DNA of 64,000 bases from an uncultured Clostridia bacterium (GTDB taxonomy: Bacteria > Bacillota > Clostridia > Lachnospirales > Lachnospiraceae). A program made the position numbers and the translations under genes. Below the pieces are notes generated by a model. It was given only the letters and a program-made list of their open reading frames with translations. It made no database searches and was not told the origin of the DNA. The stretch is taken from assembly GCA_947385955.1 (NCBI GenBank), contig CANDNA010000003.1, positions 1 through 64,000 of the forward strand, given 5' to 3'. Positions within the stretch are counted from its first letter, which is position 1; each line of letters starts with the position of its first letter. Below, piece by piece: positions 39,797-47,017 of this stretch.

Positions 39797-42037
39797 ATGA
39801 TGAAAAAGAAACGGATCTGGGAAATTGCCGCTGTGGCAGCTTTTATGGCGGTTTTGATATCTGCAAATGGTACACCAAAGCAAAGAGGACAAAATGCAGC
39901 AGAGGACAGAATGGAGCCTGCAGACGGCGAGGAGGAAAAGCTGCCTGCAGAAACAGAACAGGAAGGGACAGAAGTGGACGAAAACGATTTCCGGCCGCTT
40001 CTTGCAGAAATTCCAGGTGAAAAAAGGGTTGAACTGGTGTTTTATTCGGAAGGGTGTTATTGCTACTATAATGGTTCCCTTTATGGGTATATATCGGAAA
40101 CAGGAGAAGAGATTGCGCCCTGTATCTTCAGAGAGGCGGCGCCTTTTTCCGAAGGGCTGGCCTGTGTGCGTCTGGATGATCAATACGGCTACATTGGGAA
40201 AGACGGAGAAACAGTCCTGCCCTTTCTCTATGACCAGGCATCTTCCTTTCAGGAGGGACTGGCTTATTTTTCCACAGGAGACAGCTATGGATTTATGGAC
40301 AGGGCCGGCCGGGTGGTCCTGAGGCCGGACTGCGACAGTATCAGCAGTTTTTCCGAAGGGCTGGCCTTTTTTTGTGTGGATGGACGGTATGGTTATATGG
40401 ACAGGAGCGGCCGGATTGTGACAGAGCCGGTTTATGATGATGCAGGATATTTCCGGGATGGGATTGCCACAGTGATGCAGAACGGTTATTATGGTATTGT
40501 AGGAAAAGACGGCAGGGAAATTCTTGCGCCGGAATACGAAGCGGTCTGGGTGAATGGTTCTTATATCATCGCCAAAAAGGGGACGGCTTCTTACTGCTTT
40601 GACAGGGAGGGCAGGCAGATTTCAGGCGGATGGGATAACATTTATGTTCAGGGGGATTTGCTTTGTATCAAGCAGGATGAGAAGTACGGACTGTCAGATT
40701 CCGATGGGAATCTTCTTCTGGAGGTGAAATATGACTGGATTGATCCCATACCCGGCAAAGAGCTGGTGATCGCAAATCAGCAGGATATCTGCGGCGTATT
40801 GGACTATCATGGGCAGATAAAGGTTCCGTTTCAGTATGATGCGATACGGTGTTTTGATGAGAAAGGAGACAATCTGTATATCAGTAGAGCAGGGAAATAC
40901 GGATATCTGGACGGGACGGATTTTTCAGAAACGATTCCGGCTGTGTATGATTTCCTGTCTCCTGTTATCCGTGGACGGGCGGTTGTGGGACTGGAAGGAA
41001 AATATGGAGTGATCGGGGAGGACGGGATCCTGGAAATCCCCATAAAATATGATGGAATAAGGATATGTTCCAATGGCGCCCTGATTCTGCGGAGAAACGG
41101 AACAACAGAACTGTGGGATGAGCAGGGGAATGTGCTTTTGTCCGGACAGTATGATGACATCATAGACGAGGGAGATTGCTATGAAGTGAAAAAGGACGGT
41201 GAGCATGGCTTTCTGGACAGGCATGGGAAAGAGGTGATTCCTGTTTCCTGGTCTTATACCGGCAACCATGAGATATATGGCGGAAACAATATCAAGCTGC
41301 TGTCAGAATACGGGGCTGAAACCTCCAATATGTTGATTCAAACCGGGGAGAAAGAGTTAGTCAGCCTGGAACAGGTATTTTTTAACAATTATATTACGCC
41401 AAAAGCAGGGGCCTTTTTTACGTTTCTACAGGAAGGTGCCTTTCAGGTGGGAGACATAGAAGAGGGCGGGTATGTAAGAGAAATGCAGGAGCTTAATGCC
41501 TGTCGGAAATTCTGCAAACTGTTCCGGTTCGGAGAACAGGGAGCACCTGTTTTGTATGTGTATGCATCTTCCTGGATTCCCGGCAATTTCCCGGAATCTT
41601 ACAGTGGACTGTATGGCCTTTGGGATGGGAGTGTGGAAACTCTGGCAACCGGATATCAATACGGCGGTTCTTCCGGGGGCGACCATGTGTGTTTCTGGTA
41701 TGATAAGGAAACATCCGAACGAAAACCTGGAGTGGAAGGATATTTTGGAGGCTTTGGAGGCACTGCATGTGTCGGAGAAGTATATGATCAGCAGGATGAG
41801 ACAATTTCCGTCATATCGTTCGGTGTGATCAGTCAGAGCGCGGAAAATTACAGCAAAACAGAACTGGAACAGGATGCATGCCTGTTTTATGGGGGAAACG
41901 GCTGTCCTTATACCCCGGATTCCATCGGGGAGGCTGAACATGTGACGGAATATTCCGTAAATGACCAGAGAACGACAATTGAAGAATATCGTAAAATCAG
42001 GGACAGGTATCGGTACCTTATGGTAGTGGAGTCATGA
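39797..42037 (+). CDS. Secreted WG-repeat protein
   Basis: A 746-residue protein with an N-terminal hydrophobic segment (IWEIAAVAAFMAVLISA) and a low-complexity acidic linker. Residues from about 80 to 490 contain roughly ten WG-type repeats of the form YGYIGKDGETVLPFLYDQASSF, here shown in part, with the Phe/Tyr-Gly-hydrophobic-Asp-Gly pattern. The last 250 residues form a different domain. WG-repeat proteins are common in gut Bacillota and Bacteroidota surface proteomes, with no firm function. GGGAGGAAG precedes the start. Confidence 0.88.
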   Translation: MMKKKRIWEIAAVAAFMAVLISANGTPKQRGQNAAEDRMEPADGEEEKLPAETEQEGTEVDENDFRPLLAEIPGEKRVELVFYSEGCYCYYNGSLYGYISETGEEIAPCIFREAAPFSEGLACVRLDDQYGYIGKDGETVLPFLYDQASSFQEGLAYFSTGDSYGFMDRAGRVVLRPDCDSISSFSEGLAFFCVDGRYGYMDRSGRIVTEPVYDDAGYFRDGIATVMQNGYYGIVGKDGREILAPEYEAVWVNGSYIIAKKGTASYCFDREGRQISGGWDNIYVQGDLLCIKQDEKYGLSDSDGNLLLEVKYDWIDPIPGKELVIANQQDICGVLDYHGQIKVPFQYDAIRCFDEKGDNLYISRAGKYGYLDGTDFSETIPAVYDFLSPVIRGRAVVGLEGKYGVIGEDGILEIPIKYDGIRICSNGALILRRNGTTELWDEQGNVLLSGQYDDIIDEGDCYEVKKDGEHGFLDRHGKEVIPVSWSYTGNHEIYGGNNIKLLSEYGAETSNMLIQTGEKELVSLEQVFFNNYITPKAGAFFTFLQEGAFQVGDIEEGGYVREMQELNACRKFCKLFRFGEQGAPVLYVYASSWIPGNFPESYSGLYGLWDGSVETLATGYQYGGSSGGDHVCFWYDKETSERKPGVEGYFGGFGGTACVGEVYDQQDETISVISFGVISQSAENYSKTELEQDACLFYGGNGCPYTPDSIGEAEHVTEYSVNDQRTTIEEYRKIRDRYRYLMVVES

Positions 42038-42861: not shown

Positions 42862-42890
42862 TTGTATTTTCTTTCTGAAATTTGTATAAT
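42862..42890 (+). promoter_or_regulatory. Promoter of the HSP90-like operon
   Basis: TTGTAT (42862-42867), 17 bases, TATAAT (42885-42890), 38 bases before the start at 42929. The HSP90-like gene and its two followers have a transcript separate from tatD. Confidence 0.78.
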
Positions 42891-42928
42891 GGTAACAGGG
42901 TTTATTGTTTGCATATGAGGGGGATATG

Positions 42929-44752
42929 ATGAAAGATTATCGGTTTCAGGTCAATTTGGGCGGTATGATTGAAATATTGTCAGATCATTTATACAGCAGC
43001 CCGGATGTGTATATCAGAGAGCTTTTGCAAAATGGTGTGGATGCCATTACCGGCAGGAAAATCCGGGAGAGGGAAGCATCAGAAAAAGTACAGGAGAGCG
43101 AAGGAAAGATCATTCTGGAAATTGAGGAAGGCCGTCGTCTGACATTTACGGATAATGGACAGGGGCTGACAGAGGAAGAGATCCATCAGTTCCTGGCAAT
43201 TATCGGAGAGTCCTCCAAACGCAGTCAGAAGAGCGGAAGAATCCCCACGGATTACATAGGCCGGTTCGGTATCGGTCTGCTTTCCTGTTTTATGGTATCA
43301 GATGAGATTCATATGCTGACCAGATCCTGTAAGGCAGAAGATGCGCCTGTACTGGAATGGCAGGGAAAGCCGGACGGTACATATACGATAAAAAGAGCGG
43401 AGCAGGAAACCATCGGCCAGGGGGATATGGAAAGCGGGACACAGGTGGTTTTGCTGGCGAAACCGGGCAGGGAATCTTATTTTACGGAAAAGACCATACG
43501 AAAGCTGATTACCTATTATGGGTTGTTGCTGCCGTTTCCGGTGATTGTCCGGGTAAATGGTCAGGAGGAACAGATCAATCCGGTCTATCTGCCCTGGGAT
43601 GGGCGCAATACCAACAAACAGGAGCTGATGCTGTTTGGACAGATGATGTTTGAAGAACAGTTTCTGGACTGTATCCCGCTGCGGTCCGAGAGCGGAAATG
43701 TATCCGGGGTGGCATATATCGTAAAATATCCGGTGCTGCCTTCAGCCAGAGGCAGCCATCGGATTTATCTGAAAAATATGCTGTTAACGGAAAAAGGAGA
43801 CAATCTGATTCCGGACTGGGCAGTGTTTACCAGATGCATTATCAATGCCACCGACTTAAGGCCCACAGCTTCCAGAGAGGGATTTTATGTGGATGAAGTG
43901 CTGGAGGATGCCAGGGAGTCCATAGAGGACAGCCTGATTGATTATATAGCGGAACTGGCAGAGGAGAACCGGGAACTGTTTGATACCTTTTTTCATATCC
44001 ACCGCCTGACTCTGATGTCATTGGCTCTGGCCACGCCCAAGCTGTTTGAAATACTGGTGGATTACTGTGAATTTGAAACGACAAGAGGCACACAGAGCGG
44101 CTATCAGCTCAGGAGCTGTGGGGAACCGCTGGTTTATGCGCCTACGGAGTCCAGATACAAGCAGCTTTCCCAGCTTTTCTTTGCCCAGGATACCCTGTTG
44201 ATCAATGTATCCTATGTGCATTCTCTGGAACTGCTTTGCCGGCTGGGACAGGTATATGGTCTGGAAGTGCGTCCGGTGGATGACTGGAGTGTGGAAGATC
44301 TGATGCAGGATCTGTCACCGGACGATCAGGACGAGAGCTTTTCTTTTCAAAAAACAGCCAACCGGCTGCTGAAAACCTATGACTGCCGGGCAGAGTTGAA
44401 GTATTTTTCACCGGCCAACCAGCCTACATTTTATCTGATGGATGAAAAGATACTGCTGAAACGTCAGATTGCGGCGTCCCGTTCCCAGGCAGATTCCATG
44501 TTCTTTCAGATGCTGGATGCGTTTACGGCGGAGATTCCCAATGATACGGCAGCCGTATTGTATTTTAATTACAACAATCCGCTGGTCAGGAAGCTGGCGG
44601 CGCAGGAGAGGGAAGCTGATTTGAAAATACTGGTGGAAATTTTGTATGTGCAGGCATTGCAGATCGGTGGTTTTTCGCTGCATAACAATGAACTGGGGAT
44701 GCTGAACCGGAATATTCTGATTTTGATGGAGAGAGGGCTTTCGGATGAGTGA
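42929..44752 (+). CDS. HSP90-like GHKL ATPase (HtpG-like)
   Basis: A 607-residue protein starting at 42929 after GAGGGG. The ATP-binding GHKL fold is clear: YIRELLQNGVDAI (the N box, Gln and Val in place of the usual SNASDAL), FTDNGQGLTEEEI (DxGxG), IGESSKRSQKSGRIPTDYIGRFGIGLLSCFMV with the GxxGxG lid (in part), and GTQVVL. The middle domain keeps LPFPVIVRVNG and ATDLRPTASREGF; the C-terminus is divergent. It is not the standard HtpG chaperone. Its stop overlaps the next gene by eight bases, and the two downstream paralogs form a unit with it, so they are likely partners or clients. Confidence 0.9.
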   Translation: MKDYRFQVNLGGMIEILSDHLYSSPDVYIRELLQNGVDAITGRKIREREASEKVQESEGKIILEIEEGRRLTFTDNGQGLTEEEIHQFLAIIGESSKRSQKSGRIPTDYIGRFGIGLLSCFMVSDEIHMLTRSCKAEDAPVLEWQGKPDGTYTIKRAEQETIGQGDMESGTQVVLLAKPGRESYFTEKTIRKLITYYGLLLPFPVIVRVNGQEEQINPVYLPWDGRNTNKQELMLFGQMMFEEQFLDCIPLRSESGNVSGVAYIVKYPVLPSARGSHRIYLKNMLLTEKGDNLIPDWAVFTRCIINATDLRPTASREGFYVDEVLEDARESIEDSLIDYIAELAEENRELFDTFFHIHRLTLMSLALATPKLFEILVDYCEFETTRGTQSGYQLRSCGEPLVYAPTESRYKQLSQLFFAQDTLLINVSYVHSLELLCRLGQVYGLEVRPVDDWSVEDLMQDLSPDDQDESFSFQKTANRLLKTYDCRAELKYFSPANQPTFYLMDEKILLKRQIAASRSQADSMFFQMLDAFTAEIPNDTAAVLYFNYNNPLVRKLAAQEREADLKILVEILYVQALQIGGFSLHNNELGMLNRNILILMERGLSDE

Positions 44753-45875
44753 GACACGGACGGCGGCAGGCTATGATCCTGAAAAAATGAAAGAAGAGTA
44801 CGACAGGACTGAGCATGGCAGGGCCAGAATGTCATGTATTCGCAGTGCCATAGAAGCGGCGGATGTTCAGGAGGATACCCCGTACCGGATTTATTTCCGG
44901 CTGGAACTGTGCAGAGAGTCTACCTTTTACGGAGACGGTATGGATATGATGGTGATTTTCCCGGAGGTGCTTGCCATCATTGACCGGTACCCGGACACTC
45001 CTTCCACTGTGTATCAGTGGAGCTATGCAGACAGTATGGATCATATCCTGTGGGTCTATAAATGGGTGCTGGAAGAGTGTGAGAACTTTTATCAGATTCC
45101 GATGGAGGATTGTCTGAAATTTTTTGAGGATTTTAAAAGGCGCAGCCTGGCGTACGGGTATAATCTGCGGCCTTATTACTATTATAAATATTTTTTTTAT
45201 GAGGACATTGGCAGGGAGATTTCCGAAGAAGCATTTCATAAATTTGAAGAACTGCCCAGGGACGATAACTGTGACTGCGAAGCCTGCGAGCGAAATGCCA
45301 TTGTTAACTTTTATCTGAAAAAGGGGGATATGGAGCGTGCGAAGCAGTTGGCAGAGGAGATAGAAAATTTTTCCCTGACCTGCGGACATGGTGACAGAGG
45401 TGCCTGGCTGCGGCTGAAAAAGCATTATATGGAATATTATCTGGGTCAGAAAGCGTTTGAAAAAGCAGAAACTTATTGCCGCATTATGGAACGCTATATG
45501 ACAGAGGATAAGGAATATCAGAGGTGGGATGATTTTCTGTATTGTTATGCCCATATCAATATGGGAAAAGCGCTGAAGATCTATAAGACACACTGGAAAG
45601 AATGGCAGGAAGAGCGGCAGCCACGGGAAATCTTCAATACGAATAAAAATATCGCATGTTTTTTTAAGAAACTGCAAGAAGAACGTACCAGGAATACGAT
45701 CAGTCTGCCTCTGGATGCTTCTTTTCCGCTGTATCAGGAGAGCGGCCGGTATCTTCTGGAAGATTTGTACCAGTATTATTATCACAGAGCAAACGAGGTG
45801 GCGGAGCGGTTTGACAAAAGAAACGGCACTTCCTGTTACTGTGACAGACTGAAAGAAGCGCTGGCCAGGGACTGA
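44745..45875 (+). CDS. Helical TPR-like protein, first of a tandem pair
   Basis: A 376-residue soluble helical protein overlapping the HSP90-like gene end. It has a TPR-like plan (paired helices such as AIVNFYLKKGDMERAKQLAEEIENF and YYLGQKAFEKAETYCRIMERY, shown in part). Cysteines C176, C178 and C181 in CDCEACERN and a later SLTCG could bind zinc. It is clearly homologous to the next gene across its length. No known domain is recognised. Co-translation suggests it is an adaptor or substrate-recognition factor for the ATPase. Confidence 0.82.
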   Translation: MSETRTAAGYDPEKMKEEYDRTEHGRARMSCIRSAIEAADVQEDTPYRIYFRLELCRESTFYGDGMDMMVIFPEVLAIIDRYPDTPSTVYQWSYADSMDHILWVYKWVLEECENFYQIPMEDCLKFFEDFKRRSLAYGYNLRPYYYYKYFFYEDIGREISEEAFHKFEELPRDDNCDCEACERNAIVNFYLKKGDMERAKQLAEEIENFSLTCGHGDRGAWLRLKKHYMEYYLGQKAFEKAETYCRIMERYMTEDKEYQRWDDFLYCYAHINMGKALKIYKTHWKEWQEERQPREIFNTNKNIACFFKKLQEERTRNTISLPLDASFPLYQESGRYLLEDLYQYYYHRANEVAERFDKRNGTSCYCDRLKEALARD

Positions 45876-45901
45876 GGAAAGGCAGAAAAGCGGAGGGGCT
45901 G

Positions 45902-47017
45902 ATGTCAGGATATGAACCAAAAACTTTAAAAAAGGCATATGATAAAATGGAGCATGGAAGCGCCCGGATTGCCGCCATGCGCAGCGCTGTCCAGGCTGCG
46001 GATCAGCAGGGGGATCATCCCTTCCGGATTTTTTTCCGCCTGGATTTATGCCGGGAATCCAATTTTTATGACGATTCTATGGACATGATGGTGGTTTTTC
46101 CGGAAGTGCTTGCTATCATTGACAGATATCCGGATACGCCTTCCACTGTCTTTAACAGCAATTTTAAAGACAGCATGGCGCATATCCTGTGGGTCTATAA
46201 GTGGATATTGAATTCCTGTATGTCCTTTTATCAGATCCCGATGGAGGATTGTCTGAAATTTTATGAGGATTTTAAAAGACGCAGCCTGGCGTATGGATAT
46301 AATCTGCGGCCTTATTATAAATGCAAATATAGTTTTTATTTCCATATTGACAGAGCGGCAGCCGAGGAAGCATTTCACGCCTTTGAGGAGTTGCCAAGAG
46401 ATGCCAACAGTGACTGCAGAGCCTGTGAGCGCAATACGGTTATCAACTTTTATCTGAGAACAGATCAACCCGGGCGGGCCGCAGAGCTGTCAGAGGAGAT
46501 TGAAAATTTTTCCCTGACCTGCGGCGGCGGAAGGATGCGTGCCTGGCTGAATATGAAAGAAAACTATATGGATTATTATTTGCGGAAACGGGAGTTTGAA
46601 GAGGCAGAGAAGTATTGCCGCCTGATTGATCCCAACCGGATCCGGAATGATGAATTTGGCGCCTGGGATGATTTTCTGTACTGTTATGCTTACAGGAATA
46701 TGGGAAAAGCACTGAAAATTTATAAAAATAACTGGAAGGACTGGGAAGAAGAACGATGTCCCTGGTCCCTATTTGAAATCAGTTTAAATAACGTCCGTTT
46801 TTTCCAGAAGCTGGGAGAGGTACGGAAACGGAAAACGGTAAAGCTGCCGTTAGACAGGTCATTTCCGCTGTATCAGGAAAGCGGACAGTATTCCATTGAA
46901 GAGATGCGCCAGTATTATTACAACAGGGCCGGTAAAATGGCAGACTGCTTCGACCGGCGCAACGGCTCCCAGGCCTGTCAGCATATGCTGAGGGAAGCAG
47001 TGGAATATGCAGAGTAA
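45902..47017 (+). CDS. Helical TPR-like protein, second of a tandem pair
   Basis: A 371-residue paralog of the preceding protein, 26 bases downstream. It keeps the opening (GYEPKTLKKAYDKMEHGSARI), the block YQIPMEDCLKF, the cysteines C172 and C175 in DCRACERN, SLTCGG and the C-terminal FPLYQESGQYS. The first cysteine of the first copy is lost (serine instead). DNA identity is very high in parts and low in others, consistent with duplication followed by gene conversion or selective divergence. Function unknown. Confidence 0.82.
   Translation: MSGYEPKTLKKAYDKMEHGSARIAAMRSAVQAADQQGDHPFRIFFRLDLCRESNFYDDSMDMMVVFPEVLAIIDRYPDTPSTVFNSNFKDSMAHILWVYKWILNSCMSFYQIPMEDCLKFYEDFKRRSLAYGYNLRPYYKCKYSFYFHIDRAAAEEAFHAFEELPRDANSDCRACERNTVINFYLRTDQPGRAAELSEEIENFSLTCGGGRMRAWLNMKENYMDYYLRKREFEEAEKYCRLIDPNRIRNDEFGAWDDFLYCYAYRNMGKALKIYKNNWKDWEEERCPWSLFEISLNNVRFFQKLGEVRKRKTVKLPLDRSFPLYQESGQYSIEEMRQYYYNRAGKMADCFDRRNGSQACQHMLREAVEYAE

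Follow-up and report, generated by a model that had tools for sequence, protein, structure and literature searches.

A divergent bacterial HSP90 encoded beside TPR-like proteins, a candidate HSP90-TPR module

The stretch of DNA analyzed here (hereafter the window) comprises 64,000 nucleotides of contig CANDNA010000003.1 (assembly GCA_947385955.1) from an uncultured bacterium of the Lachnospiraceae. At positions 42,929 to 47,017 it carries the gene for a divergent HSP90-family ATPase followed by genes for two paralogous helical proteins, here called partners, which resemble tetratricopeptide repeat (TPR) proteins. We find HSP90 and partner genes joined as a pair in both Bacillota and Actinomycetota, and the partner is probably a dedicated co-chaperone or adaptor of the divergent HSP90, the two forming an HSP90-TPR module. 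Since partner genes are found almost nowhere without a linked HSP90, the survey suggests that certain bacterial HSP90s are served by co-chaperones of their own. The HSP90 family had been catalogued before; for its pairing with a TPR partner, the literature searched gave no earlier account.

Linkage of the HSP90 and partner genes

Among 199 genomes of a Paenibacillus-type family, 74 carry the HSP90 and 72 carry the partner, never without the HSP90, counts in which the relatedness of the genomes inflates any simple test of co-occurrence. All 72 partners lie directly downstream of the HSP90 on the same strand, and the matched parts of the two genes are separated by a median of 26 nt. The presence of the pair is patchy in this family, both genes occurring in 13 of its 19 genera. 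Searches with the HSP90 and with the partner returned the same 5 of 348 genomes in a phylum-wide sample and, for strong matches, the same 17 of 170 genomes in a sample of Bacilli. Of 10 genomes from the host genus, 4 carry the module, at differing places where these can be compared; in the order, 1 of 246 genomes carries it.

Partner homologues adjoin HSP90s of NCBIfam family NF010683 in other Lachnospiraceae, Paenibacillus, Listeria, and Streptomyces. In most loci the stop and start codons are -8 to +6 apart (-8, -4, -1, or 0, with a few positive values), and since the same pair and the same type of overlap recur across Bacillota and Actinomycetota, the arrangement of the locus is more than a product of chance. 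The distance matrices of HSP90 and partner correlate with r = 0.95 over 29 loci, as expected for genes that are inherited together, and the partner evolves faster (mean identity of 30%, vs. 44% for the HSP90). The sequence-only reading from which this work started had proposed a search for the three families across genomes and had allowed that the helical proteins might occur mostly without the ATPase. The search revealed the reverse, the exceptions being weak or distant relatives.

That reading had also described a three-gene unit. The three open reading frames (ORFs) are indeed linked in the window, but the general unit is a two-gene module in which the partner has been duplicated by lineage. 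A single partner is the rule, with two present in the window, in Listeria, and in 6 of the 72 family genomes; one Lachnospiraceae genome has three, one of which lies upstream of the HSP90. Partner copies mostly group by locus or lineage, and the duplications are therefore recent and repeated. A decayed HSP90 copy without a partner was found in one genome (G982).

The divergent HSP90 and its helical partner

The window ATPase scored 586.8 bits against the NCBIfam model NF010683 ('HSP90 family protein'; cut-off 455) and 189 bits against the HtpG model NF003555 (cut-off 371), the HtpG match spanning positions 4-582. In our trees, NF010683-type proteins were split from HtpG by a fully supported branch. 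An ordinary HtpG ortholog is ruled out by the low HtpG score and the separate clade, and the GHKL fold departs from standard HtpG, as had been read from the sequence. The same genome encodes a separate ordinary HSP90 (HtpG) on another contig. The GHKL ATP-site residues E31, N35, and D75 and the middle-domain residue R316 are conserved in the clade and are common to HtpG, and more than 30 alignment positions are fixed differently in the clade and in HtpG. Residue C120 is invariant in 32 of 32 HSP90s of the clade, and the corresponding residue is Ala or Ser in 31 of 31 HtpG-type proteins. The predicted structure (mean pLDDT 82.4) aligns with full-length HSP90s across all three domains (N-M-C), with TM scores of 0.6-0.7 over about 650 columns. 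An EEVD-type tail is absent from the C-terminus, which ends in ERGLSDE, and the tail varies across the aligned clade. Note that one genome (G917) encodes, about 4 kb from its module, a very divergent HSP90-like protein of 632 aa (L097:13300-15198, minus strand) with a very long branch.

No family in Pfam, NCBIfam, or PADLOC matches the partners. Modeled with AlphaFold2 (pLDDT 87.7), partner 1 is all-helical and forms a TPR-like superhelix, which strengthens the likeness to TPR co-chaperones that had been drawn at the outset. Structural alignment over residues 3-376 retrieved the TPR class (NprR, Z 17.0; Rap, 16.5; Tom70, 14.8), and alignment with MalT domain III reached Z 19.1 over 320 residues. 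Homologues of the partner gave weak matches to TPR profiles, the best at 7.5e-06. A pentatricopeptide repeat (PPR)-like RNA-binding protein was considered and rejected: designed PPR proteins were among the best sequence and Foldseek matches, but whole-length alignment favors TPR and the PPR profile scores far under its cut-off.

The alignment of 39 partner homologues from Bacillota and Actinomycetota revealed six fully invariant positions, A39, C178, C181, C213, R359, and N360. The CxxC-type cysteines reported earlier are present in both partners and are part of a trio (C178/C181/C213 in partner 1 and C172/C175/C207 in partner 2). In the model of partner 1, C178 and C181 stand at the start of a helix and C213 comes after the antiparallel helix that succeeds it, and consequently a metal or redox site shared by the three cysteines is plausible. 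The spaced cysteines also prompted comparison with Hsp33-type redox chaperones, a candidate that was discarded as only three cysteines are invariant.

The partner domain is also found within longer proteins. In Streptomyces it makes up the N-terminal third of a TPR-containing protein about 1000 aa long, and in two Bacilli the frame with the partner domain extends to about 720-740 aa (L148:4461-6623 and L149:3389-5614, both on the minus strand), the first with a C-terminal extension that by eye resembles Sel1 repeats. A constant docking-like domain with variable repeat extensions, as these sequences seem to present, would fit an adaptor.

Explanations for the pairing

In the mechanism we propose, the divergent HSP90 would act as a homodimeric ATP-driven clamp that is co-produced with a TPR-superhelix protein of its own, the coupled genes yielding a roughly stoichiometric HSP90-partner complex. 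The TPR domain of the partner would dock on the HSP90 by a non-EEVD route and, once docked, would present or select clients or gate the ATPase-driven closure of the clamp. Within one TPR turn, the three cysteines may bind a metal ion or act as a redox switch, and duplicated partners or C-terminal extensions (TPRs in actinobacteria, Sel1-like repeats in certain bacilli) may vary the choice of clients. In the window, duplication of the partner gene would have given the single clamp two adaptors. What we infer of the HSP90-TPR module is the docking, the selection of clients, and the metal site.

A number of observations weigh against the partner being a co-chaperone. TPR folds are generic, and high structural scores are frequent among helical repeats. 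One genome (G889) has an intact HSP90 and no partner. A partner-like orphan occurs without this type of HSP90 in four genomes of one Bacilli genus (G1118, G1167, G1177, and G1217), and an Actinomyces oris plasmid (L112:5881-8916; plasmid record alone) encodes a partner-type protein of 1011 aa with no HSP90 nearby. Finally, co-inheritance is also compatible with a chaperone-client pair, and linkage alone does not discriminate between the two. The plasmid gene of A. oris adjoins a gene for a YbjN-domain protein. One of the orphans (L147:5004-6131, minus strand) keeps the DCxxC...C cysteines and is without the FDxRN motif, which hints that this motif possibly serves for contact with the HSP90.

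The main rival explanation is a dedicated chaperone-client pair, in which the TPR protein would be a working scaffold or sensor that the HSP90 folds or activates. We consider it unlikely. It agrees with a partner that is never without the HSP90 in the surveyed family while one intact HSP90 stands alone, with the faster evolution of the partner, and with its variable copy number and C-terminal extensions. However, the full set of conserved HSP90 sites is not obviously needed for a single client, and partner-like orphans exist without an NF010683-type HSP90.

The conserved cysteines raise the alternative of a redox- or metal-controlled stress chaperone, in which the CxxC...C site of the partner and C120 of the HSP90 would sense oxidants or metal and switch the clamp. 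The three partner cysteines are invariant in 39 of 39 homologues, C120 distinguishes the clade from HtpG-type proteins, and the helix layout of the model makes closeness of C178/C181 to C213 plausible. Nevertheless, a purely structural zinc site would give the same signature, no fourth ligand is invariant in the 39 homologues, and the orphan partner retains its cysteines without an HSP90, which points to a structural role. The probability of such a switch appears to be low.

The sequence-only reading had further suggested a role in stress or conflict, for which gene context offered no support. The genes around the module differ between nearly all genomes, and 91 flanking ORFs at 25 loci revealed no common family and no enrichment in defense genes. 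A role in conflict is therefore unsupported, and a defense island was rejected. Three neighboring ORFs match 'mad3', probably because they are histidine kinases. In the window, no clear defense genes neighbor the module, a PADLOC search of the module gave only local GHKL matches and no near-full-length match to a defense protein, and the partner was not found in phage records. A conflict or antiphage system with HSP90 and TPR protein as sensor or executor would suit the patchy presence in genus and order, the plasmid occurrences, and a cyanobacterial HSP90 relative that lies beside a TIR gene and whose C-terminus gives a weak TIR-like match; however, the window module has no effector domain, and together with the gene context this makes the explanation very improbable.

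Locus layout, related pairs, and known systems

The features of the locus are collected in Table 1. The ATPase gene and the two partner genes, with the overlap between the first two and the gap of 26 bases between the partners, lie exactly where they had been placed initially. The start codon of the ATPase is the ATG at 42926 or at 42929, and both partner genes are intact. Ratios of nonsynonymous to synonymous substitution (dN/dS) against relatives from the same genus and family were far below 1 in all genes compared, with dS saturated in some pairs, indicating that reading frames are maintained. The evidence for an own promoter is mixed: the TATAAT is perfect, but it is accompanied by a poor -35, and upstream of the ATPase no plus-strand promoter is listed by the consensus scan. 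From the sequence, an own promoter for the ATPase gene is plausible. Upstream of the module, and separated from it by a TatD gene, the window encodes a 746-aa protein with six matched WG_beta_rep repeats (39797-42037).

Table 1. Positions of the module and its features in the window.
Feature	Position	Strand	Basis
HSP90-family ATPase, 607 aa, NF010683/PRK14083	42929..44752	+	profile score, alignment, tree, model
TPR-like partner 1, 376 aa; 8-base overlap with ATPase gene	44745..45875	+	ORFs, homologue alignment, model
TPR-like partner 2, 371 aa; partner 1 paralogue, 62% identity; C172, C175, C207	45902..47017	+	
Candidate -10 box TATAAT, weak -35	42885..42890	+	sequence reading; below promoter-scan threshold
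Partner 1 invariant C178-x-x-C181 codons	45276..45287	+	39/39 homologues
Partner 1 third invariant cysteine C213 codon	45381..45383	+	39/39 homologues
Partner 1 F-D-x-R-N motif, residues 356-360	45810..45824	+	R359, N360 invariant 39/39

Similar pairs were found outside the family. HSP90s of Pseudomonas, Xanthomonas, and Salmonella join the window HSP90 clade against HtpG (98/97 support), and each has a TPR-type protein of about 770 aa encoded within about 40 bases downstream. These gamma-proteobacterial pairs of a sister lineage (L128:5956-10179, L129:5890-10131, and L130:5971-10118) show a conserved CxxC in the TPR-type protein. In a profile alignment this CxxC falls on the CxxC of the window partner, but the alignment is not significant (E 0.07) and homology of the two proteins was not accepted. 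The pairing of HSP90 with TPR proteins may be a general one that involves TPR families unrelated, or remotely related, to each other. The chances are about even that the loci surveyed represent a patchy but widespread bacterial HSP90 lineage with obligate, operon-encoded TPR co-chaperones carrying the three cysteines, independent of the eukaryotic EEVD system and probably drawn from more than one TPR family.

Other relatives depart from this arrangement. An HSP90 relative on a Pseudanabaena plasmid (L131:5932-9314) is followed, one gene later, by a TPR protein. The C-terminal region of this HSP90 weakly resembles CAP12/Pycsar TIR effectors and recurs in a second gene, and a TIR gene lies upstream; this branch may represent an immune system. 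Nonomuraea gerenzanensis encodes a 760-aa homologue of the Pseudomonas-type TPR protein (L133:3989-6271) with no HSP90 within about 4 kb. In Pseudomonas aeruginosa, we take PA1069 to encode the TPR partner and to lie beside the bra genes. Heat-shock RNA-seq in this species revealed an increase of htpG of about 7-fold and a decrease of PA1069 of about 4-fold (PMC4957987). Given that assignment, the PA1069 pair may not be a heat-shock system.

The window ATPase is a clear member of NF010683/PRK14083, but this family names the HSP90 half only, and the partners fall outside any catalogued family. The earlier view that the system had not been named holds for the pairing, as far as the search reached, and not for the HSP90: literature on lmo0942, PA1068/PA1069, and HSP90 co-chaperones, with preprints and most subscription papers outside the scope of the search, gave no description of the pair. 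In the portion of Chen et al. 2006 considered here, divergent second HTPG copies (group C) are described in Firmicutes, Actinobacteria, and gamma-proteobacteria, and two HTPG copies in Streptomyces coelicolor (PMC1525184). Group C has the same taxonomic spread as the window HSP90 clade; that portion of the paper mentions no gene linked to HtpG groups A-C. With bacterial HtpG (Hsp90Ec) the window protein shares the three-domain fold and the ATP-site residues, but HtpG works directly with DnaK. A paper of 2021 describes bacterial Hsp90 as being without identified cochaperones (PMC7926864).

Against this background, the near-absolute gene linkage provides a concrete candidate for a bacterial co-chaperone, in organisms that can be cultivated and manipulated. 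The module may explain why many bacteria retain a second, divergent HSP90, and it makes testable whether HSP90-TPR cooperation is older than, or parallel to, that of eukaryotes.

Eukaryotic HSP90 works with TPR co-chaperones such as Hop/Sti1, FKBP51/52, and PP5. The likeness to these systems lies in an HSP90 clamp paired with TPR-fold proteins, a pairing known here from the genes. However, the (M)EEVD tail that the TPR carboxylate clamp binds in eukaryotes is missing on the window HSP90, and its partners, in contrast to the eukaryotic co-chaperones, are degenerate TPRs with a cysteine trio, encoded by separate genes that are linked to the HSP90 in an operon.

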